From positions 62,001 to 126,000 of the forward strand of contig JAVXUO010001184.1 of NCBI GenBank assembly GCA_033065855.1: DNA of 64,000 nt, in the 5' to 3' direction. The position numbers and the translations under genes were made by a program. The notes below the pieces were generated by a model that worked only from the letters and a program-made list of their open reading frames with translations, was not told the origin of the DNA and made no database searches. This DNA comes from Escallonia rubra (taxonomy: Eukaryota > Streptophyta > Magnoliopsida > Escalloniales > Escalloniaceae). This document shows, piece by piece, positions 1,947 to 58,244 of the stretch. Position 1 is the stretch's first letter. Every line of letters begins with the position of its first letter.

Positions 1947-3041
1947 TGTGTTTGAAACCCATTTCAGTTTTTAGTTTTTGTTTTTAGAAAAAAGAAAATC
2001 AAAGCATCTTTAAGTTTTCTTTTTTTACAAAACTAATGGGTTGTTTGATACAGTTTTGCATGATTGGTTTTTACATTTTCTTTTTCCTATATTTTCTACT
2101 CTTCTCTTTTCTATTTTTTCTCTCTTCTCTTTTCTTTCATTTTCCAATATTTGAGAGCTTCTTCTAAGCTCCTATGTTCAACAACTAGTAGCGCCCCCAC
2201 CACGACCAACACATCTCCTCTACCATCGTCCAACTACTGCTATAGTAGTAACACACTAGCTTGCGAACTAGGGTTTCATTGGTTTGATTGAGTGAATGAT
2301 TTGATTGGTTTGGAATTTACCTGCACAAATCAAGATACTAGGACTAATCGATGGATGAAATCTTTTGTTGGTGTTTGTTGTAGAAACAATGGTGGTCGCT
2401 ATGATGGTGATTTGGATTTAGAGGAGTGGTGGTGCCGTGGTGGTGACCGATGTTAGAGAGTCTGGTGTTCGGCACTATTGGGCAGTGATGGTGGTAATGG
2501 TGGTGTTGGTTATCAGTGGCTATGGTGGTTGGCGTTGTTCGTGGGTGTTGGTCGCTGGTGGTGGTGGCGACGATCAGCAGCTATGGTGGTTAACCGTGTT
2601 GGTAAGTTTGGTGTTCGGGTGTCTTAATCAGTGGTGGTGGCAGATCAGCGGTCAATGGCTGTGGTGGTTAGCAGTGTTTATAGTTTGGTGTTCGGGGGTG
2701 TTGGTCATTGTTCGTGGTGGTGGTGGCGGCAGCAGCGGTCAATGCGTATGGTGATTGGCAATGTTGGTGGTTTGATATTCTTGGGTCATAGGTGTTGGCA
2801 ATGAAGATTGAAGGGAAGAAAAGACATAAAATGCTTCCAACAAAAGTTGAAAGGTGGCTCTCCAAAAAACAAAAAAACATGAAAACTCCACATTGGAGTT
2901 TTCAAAAATAGCCCTATTTTGAAAACTAGTTTATAAAATTGAAGGAAAAAAAACTAAAAACTGTCTGTCAAACGGCAATTTTTTTTTTTCGGTACTCAAA
3001 ACTAAACAAAAAACTGAAAAAATTGTTTCAAACTCTACCTG
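1947..3041. mobile_element. Possible 1.1-kb non-autonomous TIR DNA element
   Basis: The left border begins GTGTGTTTGAAAC followed by a TTTCAGTTTTTAGTTTTTG-like tract. The right border, read on the opposite strand, begins GTAGAGTTTGAAAC followed by a similar tract, so the ends form imperfect terminal inverted repeats. The interior has no transposase; it carries a (GTGGTG)n-like tract at about 2390-2760 that creates glycine/valine/tryptophan-rich shadow frames. No clean target duplication was found, so the exact ends and superfamily are uncertain. Confidence 0.4.
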
Positions 3042-3929
3042 GATTTTTTGTTTCTTCTTTTGTTCTTATTTATGTTTACTTTCTCAGTCAAATTGACCAT
3101 AAAGATTTGTTTCTCTTATTGCATTTTCCGTTGTGACAATGCCCGTGAGGAGCGATTTTGCATAAAGTAATTGACGTCAACTAAGGCGCAAAAAGACTTT
3201 TTGCCCACATATTTGTTTTCTTCATATGACTTTTGCCATTGATATTTTTTATGGCTTCTTGATGCAATTGCGGGCACATACTTATATTACAAAGGCTGAA
3301 ATCCTAGAAAATAAAAAAGTACTCCACTTTACTGTCTAGCATCAAGAAAAATCGTTAATTTCTTAAAAACTTTGAGAAAGTACCTTTAAACAAAGTGTTC
3401 TAAATCGGAGCAGCAGAGAATAGCACAAGAAACAGTGGCTTTAAGCTGGTTTCTCGCGCGTAAGGTAGTGGCAGAGGGATTGGAAGGTGCCACGGAGTTG
3501 ATACCTCAAAACCTAGGCGTCCAAGGCTTGTGAACACTAGTTTGGGTGGAGTGAAGCTCAATCTTAATGTTCTTCTTTTCTGTCTTCTTCCAAAATTCCT
3601 AGAGAAGGCAGAATTGATTTCTTTTATGCTAACTCCAATGTTTTCCAAAGAAGTCAAAACTTTGCGCACAAACCCCTCCCAGCGATATCAGACTTCTCTA
3701 ACTCCCCAAACACACAAGTGCTTTATAATTTCAGAGCTGACTTAGATTAGAGACCAAACTGAAAAGATACTACTACCCCCAACAAAAAGTAAGATAGAAA
3801 AAAATTGAAAATAAAATAGAAGCTAGACATATTTACACGAGTTTGCATCATTCCCCCCTTGTTAGAAAGAACTCACCTCTGTGCGTTGCCATTTTTTGCG
3901 ACTTAGCACATCTCAGGTTAAATTTCCAT
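3042..3929. other. Spacer with no gene recognised
   Basis: An 89-codon open frame on the minus strand (about 3400-3669) is the longest in this stretch. It is rich in serine, arginine and leucine and matches no family I recognise. I see no splice pattern or neighbouring exon to support it. Confidence 0.4.
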
Positions 3930-5790
3930 AAACTTCTCCTCGCTTAACCATGAGTTCTCATAGTCAGGCTGCCCGTCCACTTCACGAGAAATTTTAAATA
4001 TGACCCCGCTCTTGTCTTCATTTCTTCGACGTCGATCACTCTTTCACCCTTGTCCTTTTGTTTTGTCGAAACCTCACCTGACGTTTCAACACTAGCATCA
4101 CCCACCTTATCATATGTATTACCATGAAATGTGTAAATGCCTGCCACATTGAAGATATATGACAAGACCATGAGGGAGTTCTACTACATAGGCATTATCA
4201 CCAATTTTGCCCCATATCTTGCATGGGCCAACCTTTTTGCTTTTTATTTGTGGTAAATAACTGTTGTAAGCCTTTCTTTTGGAGGAAGACCATAACCCAA
4301 TCCCCAACCTTGAACTCTTTGAACTTCCGCTGGCGATCAGTAGCTTCTTTGTAGCGTTGATCCATTTCAGCCAATTTCTCTTTACCTTCTTCTTCAACCT
4401 CCTTCAGGTTTTCACCGTAGGTGATAGCATCTTCATTAGCTCGTGGCTGATCAGACACATCCATAAGGTCAACAACCTGGATTGGGTTTCACCCGTAGGC
4501 AGATTGGAAAAGGCTCTTTCCAGTAAACCTATTCACGATGCTATTATGTGCAAATTCAGCTTGAGGCAAGATCAAATCCCATTGCTTAATATTGTCCTTA
4601 GCTACACACCTCAACTAATTTTCCAAACTACAGTTTATTATTTCTGTTTGCCCATCTGTTTGCCCATCTGTTTGAGGGTGATATCCGCTTTTATATCGCA
4701 ATTTAGTGGCCAATAATTTCCACAAGGTCGTCCAAAACTGGCTAAGAAACTTGGTGTCTTGATCAGACGTGATGGTTTTGCGAAAACCATGTAATTTAAC
4801 CACTTCTTGAAAGAAAAGAGTCGACATACAGGTTGCATCTAAAATCTTCTTACATGCACTGAATGAGCCATCTTTGAAAACCAATCAACGACGAAAATGG
4901 AATCCACTGCTCTTGTTGTCCGTCGTAGCCCCAAAGAACAATAACTCCAACCCATGGAATCATAAAAGCGTATAAACATGCATTTTGTTGTTGTCCTTTA
5001 GATACTTGGTACGTATAACACCTACGGACATACCGATACAATCTCTCTGTTTTGTCGGCCAAAAGTATCTTCCAGGCACCAAATTCAGCAATCAAACTCA
5101 ACGAACCTTGGGAAAGCCAGCTTGTAGTTGCTTGAAACTTTACCGGATCAACCTCTACACCTTTGACTGACGTAACAAATCCCAAGAACTCCAATCAGCC
5201 TACCGTAAATCTACATTTTTTGAAGTTGGGTAAAGCTGATTTTGCCTCAAAAGCTGTAGAGCCCTTAAGTTTCGTGCATGGGTTGCACGACCTTTGCTAC
5301 AAATCAAGATATCATCGAAGTACACAACTAGAAACTTCCCAATAAAAGGTTTGAGTACTTGATGCATGAATCTCGTGAATGTAATTGGAGCATTTAATAG
5401 CCCAAACAGCATGACCAACCATTCTTAGAGACCCTCTTTGGTATTGAATATAGTTTTCCATTCATCTCCTTCTCGGATTCATATTTGGTGATAATCACTC
5501 TTGTAAAAACTTTTCAACTCGACGATATACCAAGCGTATCATCCAATCTTGGTATTCGGAACCGGTAATTGATGGTTATCTTATTTAGCCACGCTGTGCA
5601 CGCAAATTCTCCAAATCCCATCGTTCTTCAGTGTAAGTAAAGCTCGCACAGCACAGGGACTTGAACTTTCTTGGATGAACCCCTTCTTGAGTATATCTGA
5701 AACTTGCTTTTGCAGCTCCCCGTGCTCCTTCGGACAGATCCTATAGTGCGATAGGTTTGCTAGGACAGCTCCAGGCACAAAAAATCAATG
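3930..5790 (-). mobile_element. Broken Ty3/Gypsy chromovirus fragment (RT, integrase, chromodomain)
   Basis: Read right to left on the minus strand, the recognisable pieces come in canonical Gypsy order. First is the approach to reverse transcriptase (KKGFIQESSSPCAV), then the RT core with FGLLNAP and the catalytic VVYFDDIL motif, then integrase with ITSDQDTKFLSQFW and YHPQTDGQT, and last a chromodomain-like segment with FLVKWTGS, which points to a chromovirus. No LTRs are recognisable at either side. The copy is a fossil: incomplete at both ends and interrupted many times, so it is old. Confidence 0.85.
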
Positions 5791-19922: not shown

Positions 19923-19927
19923 ACGCC
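19923..19927. repeat. Target-site duplication ACGCC (left)
   Basis: ACGCC directly precedes the TG of the left LTR. The identical ACGCC follows the right LTR at 30635-30639. Confidence 0.95.
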
Positions 19928-20372
19928 TGTTGCAGCTAAAAACTGGATCGGGAACAGCACCAGAAATCAGGCCTGCAAAAGAGAACACGGAGTTACCGCC
20001 GGGTGGGGTTCCGGCGGGGGAACGCTCCAATGCTTAAGTCAGAGAAGGCTAACGATGTAGAACTCTGAAGAAGCAGTAAAGACACAATGTGTATATGTGT
20101 GAGCTTAGGTTTACCTGAGGGGCATGACCCCTTTATATAGTGGTAGAAGGAGGAATCCTAGTAAGACTGGGCTTTGACTAACTCCAATCAGAATCCAATT
20201 AGGATCTTAGAAGATCCTTATGTCAATCTGAGCTGATGGAGTCAGAGTATTTTTAGGATTCTGTCTGATGACCGATATGGTAAGTGCCATATCAGTAGCG
20301 AGTCAATACGGGTTACGTGTCATGACCGCCACGTGTCGTCCGTAGATAGGAAGGATATTTTTAGCTATATCA
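19928..20372 (-). repeat. 3' LTR of the Tat element
   Basis: 445 bp, TGTTGCAGC..CTATATCA on the plus strand. A TATA-like CTATATAAAG lies on the minus strand at 20131-20140. It is followed on the right by the purine tract (20373-20390), which marks this as the 3' LTR for minus-strand transcription. Confidence 0.95.
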
Positions 20373-20390: not shown

Positions 20391-20496
20391 CAGCGCTAAT
20401 GAAGCGGGTGGAAGCACACTTTTTCCACTGGTGATAGCGGAATACGCCAAAAACAGAATTGAATCCGTTTGTCAATATTTCCAAATTTCAAAGAGT

Positions 20497-21310
20497 ATTC
20501 TGCTCGGACGAGATTCTGTTCGGACATGAATCTGTTCGGACGATTTTCTGCTCGGACGAGATTCTGCTCGGACATAAATCTGCTCGGACGGAATTCTGCT
20601 CGGCCGTAAATCTGCTCGGACGGAATTCTGCTTGGCCGTTGACGTTCTGTTCGGGCAGAGTGCTCGGACGAGATTCTGCTCGGACAGAATTCTGCTCGGA
20701 CGAGATTTTGCTCGGACGGAATTCTGCTCGGACGAGATTCTGCTCGGCCGTTTGACGTTCTGTTCGGGCAGAGTGCTCGGACGAGATTCTGCTTGGACAG
20801 AATTCTGCTCGGACGAGATTCTGCTCGGCCGTAAATCTGCTCGGACGGAATTCTGCTTGGCCGTTGACGTTCTGTTCGGGCAGAGTGTTCGGACGAGATT
20901 CTGCTCGGATAGAATTTTGCTCGAACGAGATTCTGCTCGGACGGAATTCTGCTCGGACGAGATTCTGCTCGGCCGTTTGACGTTCTGTTCGGACAAAGTG
21001 CTCGGACGAGATTCTGCTCGGACAGAATTCTGCTCGGACGAGATTCTGCTTGGCCATTGCCACTCTGCTCGGGCAGAGTGTTCGGGCGAGATTCTGCTCG
21101 GGCGGAATTCTGCTCGGCCGTTGGCACTCTGCTCGGGCAGAGTGTTCGGGCGAGATTCTGCTCGGGCGGAATTCTGCTCGGGCAGAATGTTCGGGCGAGA
21201 TTCTGCTCGGCCGTTGGCACTCTGCTCGGGCAGAGTGTTCGGGCGAGATTCTGCTCGGCCGTTGGTACTCTGCTCGGGCAGAGTGTTCGGGCGAGATTCT
21301 GCTCGGGCAG
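20497..21310. repeat. Palindromic CTCGG repeat array 1
   Basis: About 800 bp consist almost entirely of variants of ATTCTGCTCGGACAGAAT, CGAGATTCTGCTCGG and CTCTGCTCGGGCAGAG. Basic units are 17-37 bp, with a higher-order period of about 111-114 bp marked by GACGTTCTGTTCGGGCAGAG at about 20641, 20755, 20866 and 20979. Later units switch to GGCACTCTGCTCGGGCAGAG. Many units are perfect short palindromes around a TCGG centre. Long open frames on both strands here are artefacts of the repeat. The array lies between the 3' LTR and the antisense gene promoter. Confidence 0.95.
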
Positions 21311-21460
21311 AACTTTTGGTGTTCCCAACGTGTCACGTGCGAGAATTTGAGCGGGAATTCTTTTGAAATTTTTTTTAAGCTTCTGCGCTCTTCAGCTTGT
21401 GACACGTTGCAGGTACATGAACCGTTGCGTTTCCCAAGAGACGGTTACTTGGCGTTTCTC

Positions 21461-21467
21461 TATAAAA
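21461..21467 (+). promoter_or_regulatory. TATA box of the Tat antisense gene
   Basis: TATAAAA on the plus strand, about 140 bp before the ATG at 21604, follows the palindromic array and precedes a pyrimidine-rich leader (CTTCATTTTTCCTCCACTC). Position and context fit a plant core promoter for antisense transcription. Confidence 0.7.
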
Positions 21468-21603
21468 GAGAACTTCCACTTCATTTTTCCTCCACTCTTT
21501 TTTTTGGGAGCTCATTACTCTGCAAGTAAGTCTTTTCCTCTACCATTTCTGTTCAGCACTTCAAGTTTGTTGTAGTCTCATGTTTGCAGTAGAAGTAGAA
21601 AAC

Positions 21604-22653
21604 ATGTCTGATAGTTCGTCTACGAGTAGTAGTTCGTCTTCGAGTTCAGAACGAGTTGCAACTTCAGGAAGTGAAGTTGGGACTTCAAATCCACAACCTC
21701 CACTACCTTCGACTTCTCAACCTTTCCAACCTTCATCCTCTCGACGATTCCAGCCTTCATCCTCACAACGATTCCAGCCTTCATCCTCACAACCATTACC
21801 ACCTTCATCTTCACAGCCTTCACAATATTTATCTGGGGGGAATCCTTTAGGAGAAGTAAAGGATCAAGCCGAAGAAAAGGCTAATCCAAAGCCTTGGTAT
21901 ACTGCTGACGAAAAGTCTAGTAAGATGTCGACTGAAGATTTGCAGGATTTAATTCGGGAATATCCTCTTCCCGAAGGTTGGTATGCTCGTCTTCCCGGTT
22001 TGGGTGAACCAGCTAACTACGGCACAAAGTTTGAAACATGTGTCTACGAAGAGCAGGTGAAGTCTGGATATAGACTTCCTCTTCACCCTTTCGCTCTTCG
22101 TTTCTTTGAGCATTATCGTATGGCTCCTGGGCAGCTTGTTCCAAATGGTTGGAGGAAGCTTGCTGGTCTCATATATTTGGTTCAGACTTCAGGTTACAAA
22201 CCAGATGTAACTGATTTTATGAGAGTCTTCTTTGAAGTCTGTTTTGTGAAAGGAGTTGCCAACTGTCCCGGATGGTACTATATTCACAGTAGGCAACGAC
22301 TTCTGAAGGGAGGCCCAAAGTCGAATAAAGGTTGGCACTCCAGATATTTCTTCGTTGGCCGACTGGACAAGGGGGACCTTCCTTTTGACAGAGTGTGGAA
22401 CCCTTATTGTAAGGATTTCGAAAATCCTGGCAAGCCTACTCCCAATAGTCAGACTAAGCACATACTTAGTCATATCAAACTTCGAGGCGGTCTTTGTATA
22501 AATGAGCCCCTTTCGGAGGAACAATTAGAGTGGGCGAAGATGATACCTCCCAAGCCCATTCCAGCTGGTCTTCTGATTCCCCCTCTTCCTGCTATTCCTA
22601 GCGTGTCATCTGCTGAGACTGTTCCTCTAGGTGTGTTTTGCATGACATATTGA
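21604..22653 (+). CDS. Tat antisense ORF, block 1: 'putative gypsy-type transposon' domain protein
   Basis: This is the first of three plus-strand blocks, antisense to gag-pol. I prefer the ATG at 21604 ([19 protein letters not shown]) over the in-frame ATG at 21580; both are in the same open frame. The N-terminal 70 residues are low-complexity Ser/Pro/Gln with repeated FQPSSSQ units. The following region (EYPLPEGWYARLPGLGEP, YRLPLHPFALRFFEHYRMAP, GQLVPNGWRKLAGLIYL, FMRVFFEVCF) matches the plant-only domain that Pfam calls a putative gypsy-type transposon protein, found in additional ORFs of Tat elements. Function is unknown in the family; the name does not imply a demonstrated transposase. 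The frame is open, and the spacer after it has intron-like GT..AG ends. Confidence 0.8.
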   Translation: MSDSSSTSSSSSSSSERVATSGSEVGTSNPQPPLPSTSQPFQPSSSRRFQPSSSQRFQPSSSQPLPPSSSQPSQYLSGGNPLGEVKDQAEEKANPKPWYTADEKSSKMSTEDLQDLIREYPLPEGWYARLPGLGEPANYGTKFETCVYEEQVKSGYRLPLHPFALRFFEHYRMAPGQLVPNGWRKLAGLIYLVQTSGYKPDVTDFMRVFFEVCFVKGVANCPGWYYIHSRQRLLKGGPKSNKGWHSRYFFVGRLDKGDLPFDRVWNPYCKDFENPGKPTPNSQTKHILSHIKLRGGLCINEPLSEEQLEWAKMIPPKPIPAGLLIPPLPAIPSVSSAETVPLGVFCMTY

Positions 22654-22708
22654 ATTAAATTTGACTTCAATATTAACTCCCGTATTGACTTATATCTTCA
22701 TTGCAGAA

Positions 22709-23055
22709 ATGGCTAGTGGTAGTGGAAAGTCGCAGCAAGGAGCATTCCTCGGCGTTCTTCAGAAGGCTAAGGGGAAGCGAAAGGAGAAGCAGCCAAGTGT
22801 GGAGTTGCCTCCTGTTCCTAAGAGGACTAGAGTCACTCCTGCAGAACACTCTCCCCAGATACTTGATCAAGTTTCTATTGAGGATGATCCCATCTTTCGC
22901 CCGAGGTGGGCACTTAGGCGCGATGACCTTGGGATGCCGGACAGTCAGATCTCGGAGCAGTATCTTCGTCATGGGATCCTTCCTCGAGACAAGGAAGTTT
23001 TCCAGAATCAGACCCATGAGACTTTTGCCTGCTCATTTGCCCAGGCCGTCTATAC
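22709..23055 (+). CDS. Tat antisense ORF, block 2: basic linker
   Basis: MASGSGKSQQGAFLGVLQKA is followed by a lysine/arginine-rich stretch (KGKRKEKQ, PVPKRTRVTP) that could be a nuclear localisation signal, then an acidic/aromatic region ending FACSFAQAVYT. It follows an AT-rich spacer ending in TTCATTGCAG and is followed by another spacer starting GTAACG and ending TTTATTTCAG, consistent with the introns reported in such antisense ORFs. Splicing is inferred, not shown. Confidence 0.6.
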
Positions 23056-23136
23056 GGTAACGTCTTTTGCTTCAACTAGGTTTTATGTTCTTGTTTCCCA
23101 GTTTCGTTCAGCTGCTGATCTTCATCTTTATTTCAG

Positions 23137-23634
23137 ATGTACGCCAGTGGATCTGAGATGTTTTCTCGCTTTGAGATGGCAAGGCAGGTGGCGGCCGAGG
23201 AGGCCCAGCTGACAAGGGAAGCAGTTAAGGAAGCACATGATGCTACCCATCGTGCTGAAGAGCTGAGCAAGCGTGAGGAAGATCATCTGGATCGGATTGC
23301 ATCTCTGGAGAAGAAGCTGGATCGTGTTAAGAAGAGGGCTGCAGAAGAGGTGGTCAAAGCTCGAGACCAAGGCATTTGTGATTTCTTAGAGGGAAATGCG
23401 GGGGATGAATGGCTGAAGAAGCGGACGGAAGATGGCCTGGAGATTTATGAGCTCGGCTTTGTGAAGGCCAAGGAGATGTTCGCTGAGCGCTTTCCTGATA
23501 TTCCCTTGGATGGTTTCGTTTTGCCTGCGGTTGGGTCACCATCTGGGGAGACTGTTATGCCTCCAGAGGCAGGAGATGCTGCAGCTTCTGATCTTCCAGG
23601 TGAAGGTCCTTCTGGTGATGCCCCCGAGGCTTAG
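23137..23634 (+). CDS. Tat antisense ORF, block 3: coiled-coil C-terminal part
   Basis: The frame begins MYASGSEMFSRFEMARQVAA and continues as a long charged heptad region (EEAQLTREAVKEAHDATHRA, EELSKREEDHLDRIASLEKK, LDRVKKRAAEEVVKA), a probable coiled coil of about 70 residues. A globular-looking segment follows (WLKKRTEDGLEIYELGFVKA, RFPDIPLDGFVLP) and then an acidic/proline tail. A C-terminal coiled coil is typical of plant 'gypsy-type transposon' proteins. The end is TAG at 23632-23634. Confidence 0.65.
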   Translation: MYASGSEMFSRFEMARQVAAEEAQLTREAVKEAHDATHRAEELSKREEDHLDRIASLEKKLDRVKKRAAEEVVKARDQGICDFLEGNAGDEWLKKRTEDGLEIYELGFVKAKEMFAERFPDIPLDGFVLPAVGSPSGETVMPPEAGDAAASDLPGEGPSGDAPEA

Positions 23635-24060
23635 ACTTGTAGCTAGCCTCTTTATTTTGTTAAGACAAGTGTTCAATGCCCTCTTAAGGGCTTATATGTA
23701 AAACTCTTATCTTTAATGTTTTAGCAATTTAGCCTTTACTATGTGTCTCTCATGGTTTCGTGTTTTACCATTCACACAGTATTATTCATTTTTACTTTGA
23801 CTCAAACTCTTTAATCGTCGCTTAAAGAGTCGGCAAAGAGGTCAAGCACCCTCGCTTGGCTTATATTTCGAAGATGCAAAAGTTTTGGTGGAGTGACGAT
23901 GCCCCCATTAACTTTTGTTTCTTCACGGAGTTAGATCTGTAGCTAATCCGCCTGGCTTCTCTTGTATTTTGAAAACTCAAGAGTTATACACTCTGTTCGG
24001 GCAGACTGCTTGGCCATCACTCTGTTTTAAACAGAATGTTTTGTTTTAAATTTCTCACTC
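23635..24060. other. Spacer between the antisense gene and array 2
   Basis: No gene. It probably contains the antisense 3' end. A decayed CTCTGTTCGGGCAGA-type unit appears from about 23990, leading into array 2. Confidence 0.5.
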
Positions 24061-24416
24061 TATTCGAGCAGAGTGTTTTGGCTATGCTTGTCACTCTGTT
24101 CGGGCAGAGTGTTCGGCCGTCATTCTGTTCGGACAGAATGTTTTGGCCATGCTTGTCACTCTGCTCGGACAGAGTGTTCGGCCGTCACTCTGTTCGGACA
24201 GAATGTTTTGTCTATGCTTGTCACTCTGTTCGGGCAGAGTGTTCGGCCGTCATTCTGTTCGGACAGAATGTTTTGGCCATGCTTGTCACTCTGCTCGGGC
24301 AGAGTGTTCGGCCGTCATTCTGTTCGGACAGAATGTTTTGGCTATGCTTGTCACTCTGTTCGGGCAGAGTGTTCGGCCGTCACTCTGTTCGGACAGAATG
24401 TTTTGGCTATGCTTCT
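24061..24416. repeat. Palindromic repeat array 2 (65-bp units)
   Basis: Five full 65-bp units start at 24076, 24141, 24206, 24271 and 24336, plus partial ends. Each unit has a TTTTGGCYATGCTTGT spacer, palindrome A (CACTCTGTTCGGGCAGAGTG type), the spacer TTCGGCCGT, and palindrome B (CATTCTGTTCGGACAGAATG type). Both palindromes have 8-bp arms around TCGG. The array sits between the antisense gene and the 3' end of pol, so arrays 1 and 2 bracket the antisense gene. Confidence 0.95.
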
Positions 24417-24602: not shown

Positions 24603-27600
24603 CTACTGGTAATATCTGCGCAAGTTCTCAGCATTCCAAGTACGAGGGATGGGTTCTCCAGAAAGTTTCCCTAGTGCGTAGGCGCCCGGTTTGAGCACCT
24701 TTATAACACGGTAGGGTCCTTCCCAGTTTGGAGATAACTTTCCCGTCGCCGCCTTCGGATCGGAAACTTCTAGTTTGCGAAGGACCAAATCTCCTTCGTT
24801 GAACTGTTTGGATCGGACTCTTTGATTGTAATATCGTGCCACTCGTTGTTTTATGACGACAGATCGTGCATGGGCTTGAGTTCGAGCTTCATCTACCAAA
24901 TCAAGATTTGCTCGGAGTCCATCTTCGTTGTTTAATTCGTTGAAGTGTAAGGCCCGTATCGTTGGAATTCCAATTTCGACTGGCAACATTGCTTCCGTTC
25001 CGTAGCAGAGTAAGAAAGGTGTTTCCCCTGTAACTGAATGTGGAGTTATTCGATAAGCCCACAATACTTTGGGGAGTTCGTCCACCCATGCGCCTTTAGC
25101 TTCATCTAGCTTCTTCTTCAATCCTTGTAGGATGCTTCGATTCATGTTTTCGGTCTGTCCGTTGGATTGTGGATGAGCTACAGAAGTGAATCTCAAATCG
25201 ATCGATAGATTCATACAAAAGGTTCGAAAGTTGTTGTTGTCAAATTGCTTTCCGTTATCAACGATCAAGGCCCTTGGTATTCCGAAGCGGCAGACGACAT
25301 TTTTCCAGAAGAACTCTTCACACTTGGCTGAAGTAATGGTAGCCAAAGATTCTGCTTCAGTCCATTTGGTGAAGTAGTCTATTGTCACGATTACGAATCG
25401 TCGTTGTCCTGTCGCCATGGGAAAAGGTCCCAAAAGATCCATTCCCCAAACAGCAAAAGGAATTGGAGAAACAATTGAGGTTAAAGGAACCACCGGTGTA
25501 TGGGAAACGGGCGCGAATTTCTGACATCTATCGCATCTTCGAGTAAAGTCAATCGCGTCTTTCTGCATCGTAGGCCAGTAGTATCCTTGCCTTAGGATTT
25601 TCTGTGCCAATGTTCTCCCTCCAAGATGTTGGCCGCATATCCCTTCATGTACTTCTTGTAATGCGTAAAGGGATTCTGATGGACGTAGACATCTGAGGTA
25701 AGGAAGGCTGAACGATTTTTTGTATAAAGTCCCTTCTACTAAAGCATACCGTGCAGCTTTGACACGAAGATTTCTGGCTTCGTGTCTTGTATCTGGTAAT
25801 TCGCCCGTGGATAGGTATGTGATGATTGTGTCCATCCAACAGGGTTCTTGATCTATTACTCCAACATTAGCTTGTGAAGTAATACTGCGGTCCTTGAGGA
25901 ACTCAAGGTATATCGGTCGTCGGACATCAATTTCTTCAATGGAGGCGAGCCTTGATAATGCATCTGCCTGAGTATTCTGGTCCCGGGGAATCTGGCGGAT
26001 GGTGAAATTTTGAAACTTCACCGCTGAAGTTTTAACTAAGTCGAGATATTGAGCCATTCTATCATCTCTGGCTTCATAATCTCCCAGGACGTGATTGACC
26101 ACCAGTTGTGAATCACTTTGAACTGATAAAGAGTTCACTTTTAAGGCGTGTGCTAACCTTATCCCCGCAAGAAGGGCCTCATACTCTGCTTCGTTATTCG
26201 AGGCTTGAAAGCCGAAGCGAAGTGCGTATTCGATGGTAAATCCTTCTGGACTTATAAGAATAATCCCTGCTCCGCTACTGCCAATAGCTGAAGAACCGTC
26301 TACATAAAGATTCCAAGGATCCGGAACCTCTGAAATTACTAATTGAGGAGGGTCTTCAGGTAGTGTACACTCTACAATGAAGTCTGCCAAGGCTTGCGCT
26401 TTGATTGCCGTGCGAGGCTTGTATTGGATGTCGAATTCCCCCAACTCTACGGACCAATTGACTAGTCTTCCTGAAGCCTCTGGGCTCAGCAAAACTTTTC
26501 TAAGTGGTTGGTCCGTCAGTATAATAATAGTATGAGATTGGAAGTATGGTCGAAGACGCCTGGCCGATATGATAAGGGCTAGTGCGATCTTGTCGATCTT
26601 TGGGTATCTAGTCTCTACATCTTGCAAGACTTTACTAATGTAGTAGATGAGTTTCTGAACTCCATCTTCTTCTTTAATTAAAACAGTACTGACTGCGACG
26701 TCTGTGACTGAGAGGTATAGGAATAAGTCTTCACCTGAAAGTGGTTTTGAAAGTAGGGGTGGAGAACTTAAATAAGTCTTGAGTTCTTCAAACGACTCCT
26801 GGCAGTCATCTGTCCAAGTGAAACTTTTTGCTTTTCTGATGGCTTTGAAGAATGGCAAGCACCGTTCAGCTGATCGGGCCATGAACCTTCCCAAGGCTGC
26901 AACCCTTCCCGTCAACTCTTGTACTTGCTTGACTGTTTTTGGGGACGTCATGCTTTGGATAGCTTTGATCTTCTCTGGGTTCGCTTCGATCCCTCGTTGA
27001 GAAACTATAAATCCCAAAAACTTTCCTGATGCGACTCCGAAAGCGCACTTGAGTGGATTTAGCTTCATTCTATACTTTCGAAGGATGTCAAAAGTTTCTT
27101 TCAAGTCTTTGGCATGGAATTCAGACTTTATGCTTTTGACGAGCATATCGTCGACATAAACTTCCATGTTCTTCCCAATCAAGTCTCGAAATATCATGTT
27201 CACCAGACGCTGGTACGTTGCTCCGGCATTCTTGAGTCCAAAGGGCATCACTTTGTAGCAGTACAACCCTCTCTCTGTGATGAACGAAGTTTTGGAGACG
27301 TCGTCTTTGTGCATCATAATCTGGTTATAACCAGAATATGCGTCCATGAAACTAAGCAGTTCATGGCCCGACGTAGAGTCGATAAGAAGATCTATTCTTG
27401 GGAGTGAGTAGCTGTCCTTCGGGCATGCTTTGTTGAGATCCGTGTAATCGATACATATCCGCCATCTGTCGCCTGATTTAGGAACCATGACTACATTGGC
27501 GATCCATTCTGGGTAGTGGACCTCTTCAATGAAGTTAGCCGTTAGGAGTTTATCTACTTCTTCTTCAATCTTCTCCTGTCTCTCTGGCGCAAAAGTCCTT

Positions 27601-28535
27601 TTCTTCTGCTTGACAGGTTTTTTGGATGGATCAACATTCAGCCTATGGGTAATGACTTCAGGATCAATTCCAGGCATGTCTGCGGCTGTCCATGCAAAAA
27701 TATCCGCATAGGTTCTTAATAGGTTCACCAGCTCAAGTTTGGTGTCTTCCTTAAGATTTGATCCTATTCGAACCGTCTTGCTTTCTTCCCCGGGATATAC
27801 TTCAATGCTGATAAGGTCTTCAACTGGTTCTCTCCTTTGTATCCTTGTATCTTCCCGGAGGTCGTCTATAATGAGTGCTTCCTTGCTTTTTGATCGGCAT
27901 GAAGTTACGTAGCACTGGCGAGCTGTAGTTTGGTCGCCTTTCACCTCTCCAATCCCGTGCTCTGTGGGGAATTTCATTTTGAGGTGATAAGTTGACACTA
28001 CAGCCTGAAACTGATTGAGCGCTGGTCGTCCCAATATTGCGTTGTATGGTGAGGGGACCTTTACCACCACAAAATCAAGCATGAAGTTGGCTTGTGTTGG
28101 AGGTGTGCCAATCGCAACCGGGAGCGCGATAATACCTTCGACTGCAACTGGATGATTGGAGAATCCATACAACGGTGTATCCATCTTTCGGAGACGGTCC
28201 GTTGGAATGTTCATCTTCTTGAATGCATCGTAAAATAAGACTTCCGCAGAACTTCCGTTATCGATCAGGACGCGTTTCATGTCGAAGTTCCCAGCCTTTA
28301 TGGTGATGACTAATGGATCATCATGAGGAGTTTTTACGTCCTGCGAATCTTCATCAGAGAAGGTGATCGTTGCTGCGGGTGTTGCCTTCTGCTTTTTACT
28401 TGGGGGTTGACTCGTTATGCACACTTCTCTGGCGTATGCTTTTCGAGCTTGTCCAGATGATCCTCCTGCTGCCAATCCCCCAGATATAGTGTTGATTATA
28501 CCTGCATTCTCTTCTCGATCTTCTCTTTCTTCCAT
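24603..28535 (-). CDS. pol: Tat pol polyprotein (protease, RT, RNase H, archaeal-type RNase H, integrase)
   Basis: A 1310-codon open frame. In order: protease with VLIDNGSSAEVLFYDAF near residue 90; reverse transcriptase with WRICIDYTDLNKACPKDSY, FMDAYSGYNQI and the catalytic MEVYVDDMLVKS; the connecting RNase H (LSVTDVAVSTVLI..YISKVL); a second, archaeal-type RNase H (WNLYVDGSSAIGSSGAGI, ASNNEAEYEALLAG, QSDSQLVVNHV, ADALSRLAS); and integrase with the zinc-binding H..H..CDRCQK, then WGMDLLGPFP, ALIVDNGKQFD and SNGQTENMNRSI. The dual RNase H is characteristic of Tat elements. The protein would replicate the element in cytoplasmic particles and integrate the cDNA in the nucleus. The frame looks intact. 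Confidence 0.95.
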   Translation of the reverse strand: MEEREDREENAGIINTISGGLAAGGSSGQARKAYAREVCITSQPPSKKQKATPAATITFSDEDSQDVKTPHDDPLVITIKAGNFDMKRVLIDNGSSAEVLFYDAFKKMNIPTDRLRKMDTPLYGFSNHPVAVEGIIALPVAIGTPPTQANFMLDFVVVKVPSPYNAILGRPALNQFQAVVSTYHLKMKFPTEHGIGEVKGDQTTARQCYVTSCRSKSKEALIIDDLREDTRIQRREPVEDLISIEVYPGEESKTVRIGSNLKEDTKLELVNLLRTYADIFAWTAADMPGIDPEVITHRLNVDPSKKPVKQKKRTFAPERQEKIEEEVDKLLTANFIEEVHYPEWIANVVMVPKSGDRWRICIDYTDLNKACPKDSYSLPRIDLLIDSTSGHELLSFMDAYSGYNQIMMHKDDVSKTSFITERGLYCYKVMPFGLKNAGATYQRLVNMIFRDLIGKNMEVYVDDMLVKSIKSEFHAKDLKETFDILRKYRMKLNPLKCAFGVASGKFLGFIVSQRGIEANPEKIKAIQSMTSPKTVKQVQELTGRVAALGRFMARSAERCLPFFKAIRKAKSFTWTDDCQESFEELKTYLSSPPLLSKPLSGEDLFLYLSVTDVAVSTVLIKEEDGVQKLIYYISKVLQDVETRYPKIDKIALALIISARRLRPYFQSHTIIILTDQPLRKVLLSPEASGRLVNWSVELGEFDIQYKPRTAIKAQALADFIVECTLPEDPPQLVISEVPDPWNLYVDGSSAIGSSGAGIILISPEGFTIEYALRFGFQASNNEAEYEALLAGIRLAHALKVNSLSVQSDSQLVVNHVLGDYEARDDRMAQYLDLVKTSAVKFQNFTIRQIPRDQNTQADALSRLASIEEIDVRRPIYLEFLKDRSITSQANVGVIDQEPCWMDTIITYLSTGELPDTRHEARNLRVKAARYALVEGTLYKKSFSLPYLRCLRPSESLYALQEVHEGICGQHLGGRTLAQKILRQGYYWPTMQKDAIDFTRRCDRCQKFAPVSHTPVVPLTSIVSPIPFAVWGMDLLGPFPMATGQRRFVIVTIDYFTKWTEAESLATITSAKCEEFFWKNVVCRFGIPRALIVDNGKQFDNNNFRTFCMNLSIDLRFTSVAHPQSNGQTENMNRSILQGLKKKLDEAKGAWVDELPKVLWAYRITPHSVTGETPFLLCYGTEAMLPVEIGIPTIRALHFNELNNEDGLRANLDLVDEARTQAHARSVVIKQRVARYYNQRVRSKQFNEGDLVLRKLEVSDPKAATGKLSPNWEGPYRVIKVLKPGAYALGKLSGEPIPRTWNAENLRRYYQ

Positions 28536-28724
28536 GGCCGGGGGTGTCTATTGTCGTCCTTCCCTTGGAGCAACAAACTTTCTCAACTGACCACGCTTGA
28601 TAAGGGCCTCAATTGCTGCTTTAAGCGTTCCGCAGTTATCAGTTGCATGGCCATGATCTTTGTGGAAGTGACACCATAAATCTTTGTTCCTCTTATTTAG
28701 CCGGGATCTCATCTTATCTGGCCA

Positions 28725-30155
28725 CTAGAGAGCTTGATTGTCCTTGATCTCGTGGAGAATCTGAGATGGCTTGGCGTTAAGGGGTGTCAGATCTTTCGGA
28801 GCAAACGGGTCTTTGGGACGTCGTTCGTCCGGTTTAGATCGTTTTACTGACTTTCCCCCTTGGGGAGTTATTTCTCGAGATCGTTTCTTCGTGTTTTCCT
28901 TTTCTTCTCCATGTCGCCCTCTGTGTGTCTCCAGGTATTCTTCAGCTTGAATATATTTGTTTGCCTTCTCAAGTAGGGCTCTCATATTGCCTGGTGGACT
29001 TTTGTTCACAGAGAAGGCAAACTTGGATGTCGGACGGAGAGCGCGGAGAAAGGCAGTGTATTTCACAGACTCGTCTAGATTGTCAACCTCCAAAGTCGCT
29101 GCGTTGAACCGTCCAAGGAAACAAGCCAGAGATTCGTTTTTCTCCTGCACAATGTTAAGCAGGCTCGCCGAATTCTTTCTTCGGGAGCGACTACTTACAA
29201 AGTGCTTTTGGAAGAGATCCGACAATTGGCTGAAAGAAAAGATTGATCTTGGTTTGAGAGATTTGAACCACGCATGTGTAGCTTTTCTGAGAGTAATGGG
29301 GAAGGCTCTACACATGACAGCATCCGAAACTTGGAGGAGTAACATGTTGGTTTCAAATTGATAAACATGTTCTCCAGGATCTCCCGTCCCGTCATAATGG
29401 TCGCACTGAGGCATTCGGAAGTTGGGCGGTAGCTTTGCTTTCTCAATAGTTTTGGATAACGGATATCCAGATTCTTCCCTTGGGAGAGATCGTTCTGGAG
29501 AACGATATCTAGGTACTATCTTCCAAGAGTTTCGCTCTTGGGAACGAAACTCAGGTGTCGTCTTCCTGTGGACAGATCTTCGAGGAGTTTCAGCTTTCGC
29601 GACTCGCCGGGGAGATGAGTTGGTACTGCCTTCGACTGATGGATCCCGTCGATAGCACGATCCGCTTCTGGTCATGTGACTTCCGCTTTTAACTCTGGGA
29701 TCATAAGTTGGATCGGTCGTTGATTGATACTTGCGGCCGTAGCTTGATCTGGAGGTGAGACGAAGACGAAGGTCGCTAGGATCAAGATGGGAATGGTGAG
29801 TGGACTGTGGAGCTGCCACCCTGTCAAGCTTTTGTTGAAGAGTGTTTACAACATCCTTCAGTTCGTGGATTTCCTTGGTAAGGTTATCATGTGGTGTTTT
29901 GAATAGCTGACGGTTCAGGCGATGGCGAAGGTCACCGTTTTTCAGAGTAGACGTTGGAGATTTGTTTCTCCGAGGTCTAGTTTCTGATTCGGGAGTAGCA
30001 GATGTTATGTTGACGTAATTATCTTCGGAAGAACTGGTGTGACGACGACGCAGAGGGGTCGAGCGCTGATCATGAGAATGACCTGGTCGATGAGAGTCGT
30101 TAGTTCTCGCATGATGATTCTGTGAAGAGTCATCGGAAGAAGAGTGGTTAGCCAT
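28725..30155 (-). CDS. gag: Tat gag
   Basis: A 476-codon open frame starts MANHSSSDDSSQNHHARTND, 35 bp inside the 5' LTR on the minus strand. A Ser/Arg-rich N-terminal third with a short coiled-coil-like stretch (ELKDVVNTLQQKLDRVA) is followed by the retrotransposon gag domain (LPPNFRMPQCDHYDGTGDPG, ATHAWFKSLKPRSIFSF, LFQKHFVSSRSRRK, ESLACFLGRFNAATLEV). A basic C-terminal region follows. Gag forms the cytoplasmic particle. A separate stretch of about 190 bp lies between this frame and pol and has a Cys/His-rich look. Confidence 0.9.
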   Translation of the reverse strand: MANHSSSDDSSQNHHARTNDSHRPGHSHDQRSTPLRRRHTSSSEDNYVNITSATPESETRPRRNKSPTSTLKNGDLRHRLNRQLFKTPHDNLTKEIHELKDVVNTLQQKLDRVAAPQSTHHSHLDPSDLRLRLTSRSSYGRKYQSTTDPTYDPRVKSGSHMTRSGSCYRRDPSVEGSTNSSPRRVAKAETPRRSVHRKTTPEFRSQERNSWKIVPRYRSPERSLPREESGYPLSKTIEKAKLPPNFRMPQCDHYDGTGDPGEHVYQFETNMLLLQVSDAVMCRAFPITLRKATHAWFKSLKPRSIFSFSQLSDLFQKHFVSSRSRRKNSASLLNIVQEKNESLACFLGRFNAATLEVDNLDESVKYTAFLRALRPTSKFAFSVNKSPPGNMRALLEKANKYIQAEEYLETHRGRHGEEKENTKKRSREITPQGGKSVKRSKPDERRPKDPFAPKDLTPLNAKPSQILHEIKDNQAL

Positions 30156-30189
30156 GTTCCCTGTAGGGGTCCCACGGATGGCGCCAATC
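30155..30189 (-). promoter_or_regulatory. Primer-binding site region of the Tat element
   Basis: Directly inside the 5' LTR the minus strand reads GATTGGCGCCATCCGTGGGA. The TGGCGCC core matches the 3' end of plant tRNA-Asp, but the remainder matches only partly, so the primer tRNA is a tentative assignment. Confidence 0.6.
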
Positions 30190-30634
30190 TGTTGCAGCTA
30201 AAAACTGGATCGGGAACAGCACCAGAAATCAGGCCTGCAAAAGATAACACGGAGTTACCGCCGGGTGGGGTTCCGGCGGGGGAACGCTCCGATGCTTAAG
30301 TCAGAGAAGGCTAACGATGTAGAACTCTGAAGAAGCAGTAAAGACACAATGTGTATATGTGTGAGCTTAGGTTTACCTGAGGGGCATGACCCCTTTATAT
30401 AGTGGTAGAAGGAGGAATCCTAGTAAGACTGGGCTTTGACTAACTCCAATCAGAATCCAATTAGGATCTTAGAAGATCCTTATGTCAATCTGAGCTGATG
30501 GAGTCAGAGTATTTTTAGGATTCTGTCTGATGACCGATATGGTAAGTGCCATATCAGTAGCGAGTCAATACGGGTTACGTGTCATGACCGCCACGTGTCG
30601 TCCGTAGATAGGAAGGATATTTTTAGCTATATCA
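30190..30634 (-). repeat. 5' LTR of the Tat element
   Basis: 445 bp, identical to the left LTR except for two substitutions by eye. TATA-like CTATATAAAG lies on the minus strand near 30393-30402 and would start gag-pol transcription. The duplicated target ACGCC follows at 30635-30639. Confidence 0.95.
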
Positions 30635-39654: not shown

Positions 39655-39955
39655 AACGACGCGCGCCCGTGCACCGTCTCCGCGACGTTAGTCGCCGCGC
39701 CCATGTGCCACTTCCATGAGGTATTGTCTCCGCGACGTTCTTTGCCGCGCCCATGCGCCACTTCCGTGAGGTGGCATTTTTCACCGTGCCCATGCACCAC
39801 TTCCATGAGGTATTGTCTCCGCGACGTTTGTCGCCGCGCCCATGCGCCACTTCCATGAGGTATTGTCTCCGCGATGTTTGTCGCCTCGCCCATGCTCCAC
39901 TTCCATGAGGTATTGTCTCGGCGACCTTAGTCGCCGCGCCCTTGCGCCACTTACA
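39655..39955. repeat. Tandem array A, 50-bp units
   Basis: About six units built on CTTCCATGAGGTATTGTCTC, then CGCGACGTTTGTCGCC and GCGCCCATGCGCCA, with starts of CTTCCATGAG at 39711, 39800, 39850 and 39900. GC-rich, open in several frames purely because of the repeat. Confidence 0.9.
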
Positions 39956-39969
39956 TGATACGTGCCCCG

Positions 39970-40870
39970 ACACCATGTATTGTTACTGAGACATTCGTCG
40001 CCGCGCCCGTGCGCCATTTCCATCATATGTGTCCCCGGGCACCAGGTACTATCTCGCGACGGTCGTCGCCGCGCCCGGGCGTCACTTTCATAACATGTGC
40101 CTCGGGCACCAAGTATTGTCTCGCGACGGTCGTCGCCGCGCCCATGCGCCACTTTCACAACATGTGTCCCTGGCACCAAGTATTGTCTCGCGACGGTTAT
40201 CGCCGCGCCTGTGCGCCACTTTCACAACATGTGTCCCTGGCACCAAGTATTGTCTCTCGACGGTCGTCGCAGTGCCCGTGCGCCACTTTCATCACATGTG
40301 CCCCCGACACCAAGTATTGTCTCGCGACGGTCGTCGCCGCGCCCGTGCGCCACTTTCATCGCATGTGCCCCCGCACCAAGTATTGTCTCGCGGCGGTCGT
40401 CGCCGTGCCCGTGCGCCACTTTCATCACATGTGCCCCCGGCACCAAGTATTGTCTCGCGACGTTCGTCGCCGCGCCCGTGCGCCACTTTCATGACATGTG
40501 CCTCTGGCATTAAGTATTGTCTCGCGACGGTCGTCGTCGCCCCAGTGCGCTACTTTCATCACATGTGCCCCCGGCACCAAGTATTGTCTCGCGACGGCCG
40601 TCGTCGCGCCCGTGCGCCACTTTCATCAGATGTGCCTCTGGCTCCAAGTATTGTCTCCCGACGTTCGTCGCCGTGCCCGTGCGCCACTTTCATGACATGT
40701 GCCCCCGGCACCAAGTATTGTCTCGCGACATTCGTCGCAGCGCCCGTGCGTGACTTTCACAACATGTGCCCCCGGCACCAAGTATTGTCTCGCAACGTTC
40801 GTCGCGGCGCCCGTGCGTAACTTCCATGACATGTGCCCCCGGGCACCAGGTATTGTCTCGCGATGGTAGT
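39970..40870. repeat. Tandem array B, 67-bp units
   Basis: About 13 units of CACCAAGTATTGTCTCGCGA, CGGTCGTCGCCGCGCC and GTGCGCCACTTTCATCACAT with GTGCCCCCGG. Period 67 bp (AAGTATTG at 40111, 40178, 40245, 40312). It shares the TATTGTCTC and CGCGCCC words with array A, so one array probably grew out of the other. Long frames here are artefacts. Confidence 0.95.
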
Positions 40871-40944
40871 CACCGCGCCCATGCGGCACAATCATGTCTC
40901 GTGCTGTAGGCACCGCGCTCATGCGCCATAATCATATTACATGT

Positions 40945-41465
40945 TTCCGGGGGGCTCCATTCTTAGTGCTCCTGCACGAGGACCCTTCACAGCGGGATAG
41001 GCTCGTTAGCAAAAAGCTATCGCCGTCTTCATTCCAGGGGGCTCCACTCGTAGTGCTCCAGCACGAGGACCCTCCGCAGCGGGATGGGCTCGTTACCACC
41101 AAGCCATCGCCGCCACGGGATATGCTCGTTACCATAAAGCTATCGCCGTCTTCATTCTGGGGGGCTCCACTTGTAGTGCTCCGGCACGAGGACCCTCCGT
41201 AGCGGGATGGGCTCGTTACCACAAATCCATCGCCGCTACGGGATAGGCTCGTTACCATAAAGCTATAGCCGTCTTCATTGCGGGGGGCTCCGCTCGTAGT
41301 GCTTTGGCACGAGGACCCTCCAAAGGGGGATTGGCTCGTTACCACAAAGCCATCGTCGCTGCGGGATAGGCTCGTTACCATAAAGCTATCGCCATCTTCA
41401 TTTTGAGGGCTCCGCTCGTATTGCTCCGGCACGAGGACCTTTCGTAGCAAGATATGCTCATTACT
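40945..41465. repeat. Tandem array C, about 122-bp units
   Basis: Five units start with GGGGGCTCCA/GGGCTCCGCT at about 40950, 41038, 41161, 41285 and 41405 (spacing 88, 123, 124, 120). Each contains GTAGTGCTCCGGCACGAGGA, GGGATGGGCTCGTTACCA and AAAGCTATCGCCGTCTTCAT. Confidence 0.9.
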
Positions 41466-55700: not shown

Positions 55701-56709
55701 TTTTTCAGAGATTCATCGATATATTAGCATATTTTTTTAAAACCGCTTGATTTTAATGATGGAGTTTCGGTTACCTCGTCTTCTTCCGAAGACAATTGAT
55801 CATCGTGCACTTCTTTTTCTTCTTCTTCTTCTTCTTCTTCTTCATGTTCATCTTCTCCTTTTGCAATTGGAGTGCCACTACTCACCTGCAATTAGAAGGA
55901 AACGAGAGGATAAATAGTGTGAATACTTTGGCCTACTCTTTTGGAGTTCTTTTTTGTCTACATATCTATTTTAGGTTGTTGGATGTCTTTCTGTTGGAGC
56001 TCACAATGGTTTCGTGATTTTGCAGCTAACATGAAACCGTTTCATAGCTTTTCCAACAACACGAAAGATACCCACATAAGAGAGCACAAGTTAATGCGAT
56101 CAAATCCGTTCGAACTCGATGTAAAATGACCAAAATCGGACTTCCGGCTACCTTAGACGTGCCCTTTCAGAAAATGAAATAAAGGGAAGAGAAGAAAACA
56201 AAAACGAAAGAACTTTGCCCCTTAATTATTGGATAGTTTAGACCTTTTGCCTGAAAGTGATGTCCACCTTTTGCTGTCTCCCTATGACAAGAAACTTAAA
56301 TGAACATCACACCCATTTGGTATTAGACCTGTACAAGTTTCACACGTTTGGCCAGCTCTGAACTTCCGATAACCAACGGAAAAACTGGCATACTTGCCGG
56401 AAAATCAAGAACGAACTTAAACCCACATGAACTGGTGTTTTCTCGTATTGCTTCTTACTTGCGCTTTACCTGGATAGTCTCGGGTTTTTCCGCAGCATTG
56501 CAGATACCGGAGGAGATTTTCTTAACAGCAGCGCGAATAGGATCGAAAATGGTAAAGCCGAAATCGGTGTGGGAGTCTTGGCTATGAAGATTAAGCTTTC
56601 TCGAGAGCTTAATCTTCTTTACATGTTTCTTGAGCTGCCAGTAATTAACGAAGGCATCCTTCCATTCTGGAATAAGCTGCGCTTCCAGCTCTTTTGAGAA
56701 CTTCACCAT
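46773..56709 (-). CDS. PHO1: PHO1 phosphate exporter (SPX-EXS), complete 15-exon gene
   Basis: PHO1 exports inorganic phosphate from root stelar cells into xylem; it resides in Golgi/endosomal and plasma membranes. Coding exons: 56709-56470, 55885-55775, 55526-55292, 53210-52862, 52006-51958, 50985-50914, 50214-50085, 49932-49812, 49473-49224, 48998-48894, 48791-48747, 48308-48156, 47783-47505, 47395-47256, 46863-46773. All junctions are GT-AG and in phase; total 2370 bp, 789 aa (AtPHO1: 782 aa, also 15 exons). SPX domain about 1-345: [32 protein letters not shown], and the basic helix VKILKKFDK (K324, K325, K328) that binds inositol pyrophosphates. Membrane segments follow in exons 8-11 ([32 protein letters not shown]). 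The EXS domain is about 569-770 (SAYFFSG-like [59 protein letters not shown]). The end is [14 protein letters not shown]. Exon 2 encodes a Glu tract. It appears functional. Confidence 0.97.
52232..52520 (-). mobile_element. TRIM-like mini LTR element in PHO1 intron 4
   Basis: Two related ~110-bp repeats (about 52235-52352 and 52398-52517; each has CTCAAAAC.AATT, AGGCTTATAT and ATCTCAACAC) flank about 45 bp. Next to the right repeat, the minus strand reads TGATATCAGAGCAATT, the tRNA-Met primer site. Next to the left one it has GTGAGGAGGCG, a purine-rich tract. This is the organisation of a plant TRIM, with LTR start TGTTGAGATA. The repeats differ at many positions, so it is old. It lies in the same orientation as PHO1, between exons 4 and 5. 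Confidence 0.75.
53211..55291 (-). other. PHO1 intron 3 (2.1 kb)
   Basis: The longest PHO1 intron, with donor GTAAGC and acceptor TTAATGCAG. I chose the acceptor at 53211 over the nearer upstream CATGCAG because only it keeps the frame (G|AT, Asp). AT-rich; no gene or clear element was recognised inside. Confidence 0.7.
55810..55848. repeat. (TTC/GAA)n microsatellite coding poly-Glu in PHO1 exon 2
   Basis: A run of TTC triplets on the plus strand (GAA on the coding strand) gives a stretch of at least eight glutamates in the variable acidic loop of the SPX domain. Confidence 0.9.
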
Positions 56710-56760
56710 GCTGGGAGAAGTTTGAAAGAAGAGTTTAGAGGTACGGGAGTTATGAAGAGG

Positions 56761-56772
56761 GGTTTATATATA
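56761..56772 (-). promoter_or_regulatory. PHO1 TATA box
   Basis: Minus-strand CTATATATAAAC lies about 55-60 bp upstream of the PHO1 start codon, in a compact leader ending TTCTCCCAGC-ATG. A second TATATA-like stretch (TTTTTATATACC) lies 25 bp further upstream. Confidence 0.7.
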
Positions 56773-57746: not shown

Positions 57747-58210
57747 TAGGGCTGTAAATGAACTGAGCTATTCACGAACGGCTCATGGTTCGTTCTCCTT
57801 AGAACTCGTTTGTGTTCGTTCGTATAATATACGAACAGAACATGAACAAGTTTCTAGAGCTCGTTTATTAAACGAGACGAACATGAACACTCTAAAATAT
57901 TCGCGAATGTGTTCACGAATAACTTGTTTCAATAATAAATTAATTATAATATATTTTAAATATACCATTTACATAAATCATATATATTAAAGTTTAAACT
58001 TATAGGCCATAGAATCAATTAGCCCAAAACTAACTTCAAGCCCATTTAAACACAGCCCATGTGATATATATAATAAACCCCAAGTCCATCCCTAATTGTT
58101 AACCCATTTAAAAACCTTAACAAGAAAACCCTAACTTAGATTTCTCTCAATCAGCCGCCCCTCTCCACCTTTCTGCCTCTTTCTCTCTCTCGGCACACCC
58201 ACGTTTCTAG

Positions 58211-58244
<34 letters not shown>

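Follow-up and report, generated by a model that had tools for sequence, protein, structure and literature searches.

Conserved half-site arrays ahead of a spliced antisense TRP28 gene in a Retand-type retrotransposon of Escallonia rubra: candidate binding sites for the element's own protein

Antisense open reading frames (ORFs) and tandem arrays are both described features of Retand retrotransposons. According to the available parts of a survey of these elements (Vicient 2025, PMC11963269), antisense TRP28 ORFs are present in 97% of the clusters and arrays in about half of them, adjoining pol or the 3' long terminal repeat (LTR); the arrays were called family-specific and of unknown function, and a DNA-binding prediction was reported for TRP28. 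For gene23 of the maize element Grande, the available text of another paper (PMC7264820) reports an own promoter and a nuclear product. Here we describe an element which combines such a gene with such arrays and is located in a 64,000-nt stretch of the Escallonia rubra genome (contig JAVXUO010001184.1, positions 62,001 to 126,000 of the forward strand; in the following, the window is this whole stretch). A preliminary description made from its sequence had regarded it as the best candidate in the window for an undescribed system; as an architecture it is already published, for Retand in PMC11963269 and, regarding the promoter, for Grande gene23 in PMC7264820. Previous work covers the antisense gene, the arrays and, in Grande, the separate promoter; what appears to be new is a half-site that has been retained in arrays upstream of an antisense gene which is spliced and under selection.

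The window element is a 10.7-kb Ty3/gypsy element with gag-pol on the minus strand. Between pol and the 3' LTR, the plus strand carries array 1, a TATA box, a leader, three exons and array 2 (Table 1). The LTR (445 bp), the internal region (9817 bp) and the POL-3'LTR region (4230 bp) are all inside the ranges published for Retand (315-1194 bp, 7380-12869 bp and 2933-6566 bp, respectively; Vicient 2025, PMC11963269). Further, an antisense ORF with the domain PF04195 lies between pol and the 3' LTR, and the 5-bp target-site duplication (TSD) ACGCC is found on either side of the element. The place of this ORF, the sizes and the TSD suggest that the element, in which a reverse transcriptase (RT) domain is present, is of the Retand type (Tat clade, Ty3/gypsy). 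It was rightly described as young, the LTR pair being 99.55% identical in a self-BLAST (19927-20372 versus 30189-30634; 2 differences in 446 aligned sites). The limits of the LTRs were fixed from their TG..CA ends and the 5-bp duplication.

The proposed plus-strand unit opposite to gag-pol was found as described, with TATAAAA at 21461, the start ATG at 21604 and the stop ending at 23634, all read directly. Its three open blocks were thought to be separated by intron-like spacers; these are GT-AG introns of 76 and 80 bp, and the exon ends had to be corrected to 22630 and 23056. The three spliced exons keep the frame and give 624 codons plus stop. The predicted relation to a plant domain family of antisense ORFs was also borne out, since exon 1 contains PF04195 ("Transposase_28"; aa 148-212, E 8e-11, 42.5 bits versus a cut-off of 26.2), the sole family matched in the Pfam analysis of this exon.

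To the window copy we added 39 further copies with 91-94% identity, fetched from the genome (566 Mb, 3222 contigs) as the best-scoring among 350 first-look candidates, so that older copies of the family are unrepresented among the resulting 40. The splice sites of the coding introns are retained in 40, 39, 40 and 40 of the 40 copies, and the spliced frame is intact in 25. Summed over all pairs, the synonymous divergence (dS) of the spliced gene is 0.128 and the nonsynonymous divergence (dN) 0.019, a ratio of 0.151 (0.133 if only the 25 intact copies are taken). Ratios of 0.10-0.17 were obtained for exon 1, for its TRP28 part and its middle, and for exons 2 and 3; the Ser-rich N-terminus is above the rest of the gene (0.30-0.34). 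The same letters read in four other frames give 1.3-2.7, and the ratio is 0.22 in one antisense frame, whose degenerate positions coincide with the third positions of the gene. The variable columns are distributed over codon positions 1, 2 and 3 as 146, 106 and 282, and the intron interiors diverge by 0.095 and 0.143, which is close to the silent-site value. TATAAA is present in 40/40 copies, 139-144 bp ahead of the start codon. By this comparison the antisense unit is a spliced coding gene under purifying selection and useful to the lineage, and, as suggested in the preliminary description, it is probably transcribed from its own TATA promoter.

Relative to most of the 39 copies, the window gene is longer by a single 24-bp unit encoding 8 aa, located in its Ser/Pro-rich N-terminus (21718-21815; 1026 versus 1002 bp). 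No relatives beyond the host genome were confirmed in a viral contig collection scanned with the exon-1 frame and a 299-aa piece of pol.

That the gene lies between two arrays of one word was confirmed with Tandem Repeats Finder (TRF). Array 1 corresponds to a row with a 16-bp unit in 44.7 copies (20497-21210) and further rows reaching 21306, array 2 to a row with a 65-bp unit in 5.5 copies (24055-24414), and the two match one another in the self-BLAST. The arrays of the window family contain TCTGCTCGG and TCTGTTCGG. In the window, YTCGGVC words are oriented one way, 45 in array 1 and 15 in array 2, with 0 reversed; across the 40 copies just 5 reversed words were detected, in three copies. The designation of the word as palindromic is only partly appropriate. 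It fits array 2 better, where left half and full dyad are both present in 10/15 words, than array 1, in which 36/46 TCGG words have the left half TCTGYTCGG and only 10/46 the full dyad TCTGYTCGGRCAGA, and the right half varies across copies without covariation with the left half. Strict palindrome selection in array 1 was considered and is not supported, its pairing being near the independent-column expectation.

Array 1 is present in 40/40 copies and array 2 in 39/40, with a remnant in the remaining copy; in copy L010, array 2 consists of the first three words only, followed by other sequence. The length of array 1 is 598-1526 bp (38/40 copies with both flanks found) and that of array 2 is 183-929 bp (39/40 copies). 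In the two remaining copies, the gene is preceded by 57 words (L033) and by 20 words (L043, which stops at a contig end). The words of array 1 are mostly spaced by 16, 13 or 19 bp. The observed/expected ratio of CpG is 1.33 in array 1 (mean of the copies 1.24), 0.90 in array 2, 0.86 in pol, 0.96 in gag, 0.58 in the antisense gene and 0.57-0.59 in two flanking stretches. Genome-wide, the dyad TCTGYTCGGRCAGA occurs 5243 times and its reversed control 2 times; thus the word is not due to chance. Among the matches listed (the first 100), nine same-strand pairs of clusters are 2669-2837 bp apart, approximately the length of the gene; contig C16 has a single cluster, C68 is only partly listed, and one pair on C9 is 1565 bp apart.

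Two observations on the word itself should be mentioned. On C9 (G000:C9:496497-496822), a stretch of under 330 bp contains dyad words in both orientations, in contrast to the arrays, which mostly run one way; it may be an inverted or nested copy. In the window, long open frames cross array 1 on either strand (20396-21529, up to 331 aa), probably because the word has no stops; these frames were not taken as a gene.

PF04195 was scored at no fewer than 150 places in the genome. From 150 of them, 14 loci (group II) were picked by hand according to score spread and open frame, with the arrays unseen beforehand; they include near relatives (L048-L050; L053, L059 and L060). The TRP28 proteins of group II are 62-91% identical among themselves (six loci compared) and 27-37% identical to the window protein. 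Upstream of the TRP28 gene, 14/14 loci have a tandem array, and TCTACTCGG is present in all of them, frequently in the form of an inverted pair TCTACTCGGC..GAGYAGA. Units of a second type contain TCTGCTCGGCAGAG, near the TCTGCTCGGGCAGAG of the window family. A TATA-like box follows 100-188 bp past the array in 11/14 loci; it is degenerate in L048, and L054, L056 and L057 have no match.

Over 13 unit types of group II, identity is 98.5% in the left arm, 81% in the centre, 88% in the right arm and 44% in the linker. For this alignment one TRF unit per locus was picked by hand (13/14; L059, near the type of L053, was omitted), and the units, all of which had TCTACTC, were rotated on it. This fixes the first seven columns of the left arm and raises its value, while the right-arm and linker identities are unaffected. 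By comparison, the L048-L050, L051 and L053 lineages agree with one another at 46-55% of the third codon positions of exon 1 and at 39-68% of intron 1. Comparison within group II thus shows a half-site selected while linkers drift. An exchange of arrays between families would not easily account for arms that are kept while the linkers of the same units change.

The preliminary description had asked whether gene and arrays co-occur in related elements. They do upstream of the gene (14/14), not downstream: in 5/5 group II loci covered as far as the end of pol, no such word was found after the gene, and three of these five have small two-copy repeats only. Bracketing of the gene by arrays therefore seems to be the window family's own feature.

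The spaced dyad has 4021 strand matches in the genome (perfect palindromes counted twice) versus 4 for the reversed and 1 for the scrambled control. Among the matches listed (again the first 100), seven groups have at least 3 sites in 2 kb and an eighth (C170) is partly listed; for five of these eight, a scored TRP28 match lies on the expected side, and the other three are not among the scored PF04195 places (150 or more listed). Single and paired sites are also among the listed matches. One locus approached array-first, from a single dyad match (L062), was discarded; it had neither a TRP28 match nor such an array.

Based on these observations, we estimate a probability of roughly one half that the TRP28 accessory gene and array 1 form a system of self-control similar to that of VANC proteins, array 1 being a bank of binding sites for the TRP28 protein. 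The gene, which selection maintains, would be transcribed against gag-pol from a TATA promoter of its own, and its transcript would be spliced and translated. Array 1, 150 bp ahead of this promoter, would offer the predicted half-site TCTRCTCGG/TCTGYTCGG in many copies, multiplied by tandem repetition, with selection holding the half-site and the linkers drifting. That a protein reads the array word is what we infer, and the TRP28 protein suggests itself for two reasons: the word accompanies the gene, and the coil-like C-terminus of the protein, if dimerising, would suit inverted half-sites. Dimerised via its C-terminal helices, it would return to the arrays of sister copies and increase or permit transcription of the TRP28 gene and thereby of the element, in parallel to VANC proteins, which use tandem motifs to undo the silencing of VANDAL transposons. 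In the window family, a second array would have been added after the gene. The original idea that the arrays are binding sites of the encoded protein has gained support, insofar as the word appears to be the constant part of 14/14 diverged upstream arrays. It is more tentative, though possible, that this amounts to a self-activation or anti-silencing system of Retand elements, in which the protein of an antisense, spliced TRP28 gene reads a long-kept half-site (TCTRCTCGG), multiplied in arrays before its own promoter, and the antisense mRNA is sometimes copied back into the element. Activation, insulation and de-silencing would leave indistinguishable sequences. In print, the function of Retand's antisense TRP28 genes and that of its tandem arrays are both given as unknown; if the arrays are the target of TRP28, the two puzzles share one answer.

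Several points weigh against TRP28 as the reader of the arrays. The structure prediction of exon 1 scored too low (predicted local distance difference test score, pLDDT, 39.5) to support a DNA-binding fold. The 15/40 copies with a broken gene retain arrays, which fits dead copies and also a useless gene, and in all copies the arms of array 1 pair approximately as independent columns predict. The word of the window family matches that of group II at p<=0.05 in 7/15 unit comparisons (range 0.002-0.71, uncorrected), and a random 18-mer of like composition matches equally well with a chance of 1.7%; that both share the word by more than coincidence is thus no more than suggestive. Alignment of the window family with group II yielded nothing in arrays, promoter and introns at E 1e-3, and LTR pieces and exon 1 matched in 3/14 loci each. 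Finally, the same pattern would be expected if a host factor were the reader.

The last point leads to the alternative that survives best, which we nevertheless consider unlikely, namely that the arrays are enhancers for a host transcription factor, a multiplied host site driving the antisense gene while TRP28 acts otherwise. A homotypic cluster of sites 100-190 bp before a TATA box in two diverged groups would be expected of such an enhancer, as would a group II word conserved beyond its surroundings. However, among the matches listed (the first 100 per pattern, a small part) the sites are mostly in clusters and few are single, which suits an element-borne target better; no search for a host factor was made.

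It is rather improbable that the arrays act as RNA, by forming hairpins either in genomic RNA, for packaging or dimerisation, or in a plus-strand RNA. Both arrays fold much more stably than 40 dinucleotide shuffles, with z values of -15.8 (plus strand) and -7.4 (minus strand) for array 1 and of -18.9 and -14.9 for array 2, but this is expected of any palindromic repeat. Among distinct words of array 1, plus-strand G-U wobble mispairs exceed A-C mispairs at offsets 2, 3, 5, 6 and 8; they are rarer than A-C at offsets 1, 4 and 7, and the excess may be due to composition alone. Pairing of the arms exceeds expectation in array 2 at offsets 4-6 when all copies are considered, whereas no offset of array 1 shows pairing clearly different from that of independent columns.

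Slightly less probable still is that the arrays are functionless satellites, by-products of slippage in a permissive 3' region. The wide length spread of both arrays (38 and 39 copies measured) and the label family-specific, of unknown function, given to arrays in the accessible text of PMC11963269 are in line with this. It is weakened by the conservation of the arms, which is not shared by the linkers of the same units and by silent sites, and by the regular presence of an array upstream of the gene in all group II loci and of array 1 in all copies. The proposal that the arrays are a boundary or terminator pair for convergent transcription, suggested by a gene between two arrays and by array 2 separating the 3' end of the antisense gene from that of pol, is very improbable as a general role, because array 2 is missing in 5/5 diverged loci read that far and insulation from pol is hence no general need.

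Group II also provides a hint at the fate of the predicted antisense transcript. L051 and L053 have an intron ahead of the last coding part, in a place like that of window intron 2 (likeness judged by eye), and L048, L049 and L050 are without it exactly at the splice sites, with the exon letters joined as CAG|GC. L052 retains the intron stretch with a changed acceptor (by eye). The simplest account of the exact absence would be replacement by a copied-back spliced antisense mRNA; alternatively, if window intron 2 is a different one, a gain in the L051/L053 lineage is possible. On the former account, the missing intron would demonstrate splicing and copying back of a retrotransposon's antisense mRNA. 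In L049, a 653-aa frame (2677-4635) runs through intron 1 and is without intron 2; this locus belongs to a subfamily of 8 identically scoring places.

Elsewhere in the window, a third array of a like word (TCTGCTCGGGCA.., drifting to CCTGGTCGG) is present in reversed orientation at 63405-64000 and continues past the window end (L063, 1-267). Behind it, L063 contains a stretch approximately 70% like the LTR of the window element and a gag stretch with 67% identity over 987 bp, and this locus is therefore probably a related, rearranged element. A 2.4-kb direct duplication with 98.9% identity (56608-59048 and 59495-61933) is unrelated to the antisense gene, and GC-rich tandem arrays with 50-, 67- and 123-bp units are located at 39676-41448 within a stretch of 58-59% GC.

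Table 1. Features of the Retand-type element in the window (positions count from the first letter of the window).
Feature	Position	Strand	Basis
3' LTR	19928..20372	-	self-BLAST pair, ends read; TSD ACGCC outside
Array 1	20497..21310	+	46 TCGG words, upstream of antisense promoter; TRF
TATA box (TATAAAA) of the antisense gene	21461..21467	+	read directly; 150 bp past array 1
Putative leader intron, GTAAG..TTTGCAG, 64 bp	21526..21589	+	like pattern in 28/40 copies
Exon 1, Ser/Pro-rich N-terminus, then TRP28 domain (PF04195)	21604..22630	+	Pfam; dN/dS 0.16-0.17
Intron 1 (GT-AG), 76 bp	22631..22706	+	donor 40/40, acceptor 39/40
Exon 2	22707..23056	+	dN/dS 0.12-0.14
Intron 2 (GT-AG), 80 bp	23057..23136	+	splice sites 40/40
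Exon 3, charged helical (coiled-coil-like) C-terminus	23137..23634	+	dN/dS 0.11-0.13; coiled coil judged by eye
Array 2	24055..24416	+	65-bp units, three TCGG words each, better-formed dyads; TRF
pol (RT, RNase H, integrase), open	24603..28547	-	Pfam domains as expected
gag, open	28725..30197	-	Retrotrans_gag E 4e-14
5' LTR	30190..30634	-	self-BLAST pair, ends and TSD read

Compared with Retand as described in the available parts of PMC11963269, the window element agrees in the antisense PF04195 ORF between pol and 3' LTR, in arrays adjoining these two regions and in its sizes. The ORFs in that work were obtained with ORF Finder; the present comparison adds introns, selection, the exact intron absence and a word common to diverged loci. 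The word "intron" occurs 0 times in the available text of PMC11963269 and PMC7264820, and "palindrom" 0 times in that of PMC7264820 and in one reference only in that of PMC11963269. Among titles and abstract openings, with subscription literature incompletely covered, we found no publication tying TRP28 to the arrays, and we claim no priority. Grande gene23 (PMC7264820, in the accessible text) is likewise an antisense accessory gene with its own upstream promoter, a likeness by description only; its transcription and nuclear location were reported, while those of the window gene are only inferred. Antisense genes of the HBZ type in human T-lymphotropic virus (HTLV), named in the same parts of PMC11963269, are also located near the 3' LTR, and no homology is claimed. 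According to the accessible text of PMC7264820 the HTLV antisense promoter is inside the 3' LTR, whereas the TATA box in the window is in the internal region.

A parallel in layout is provided by VANC proteins and VANDAL elements of Arabidopsis (PMC5735166 and PMC10398659, in their available parts), in which an element protein is likewise combined with short motifs in tandem repeats of the element's own noncoding DNA. VANDALs are DNA transposons and the window element is an LTR retrotransposon; binding and hypomethylation by VANC were shown by experiment, whereas the window system is known from sequence alone. Further, VANC motifs differ between related families, while the predicted TRP28 half-site persists and the linkers change, with TCTACTCGG in 14/14 group II loci and TCTGCTCGG/TCTGTTCGG in the window family. 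Likened by layout, the TRP28-array system may thus be said to work like VANC rather than to be VANC, and VANC is probably the best working model for an element protein with tandem target motifs. If TRP28 does target the arrays, sequence-specific control systems would be carried by plant LTR retrotransposons as well as by DNA transposons.

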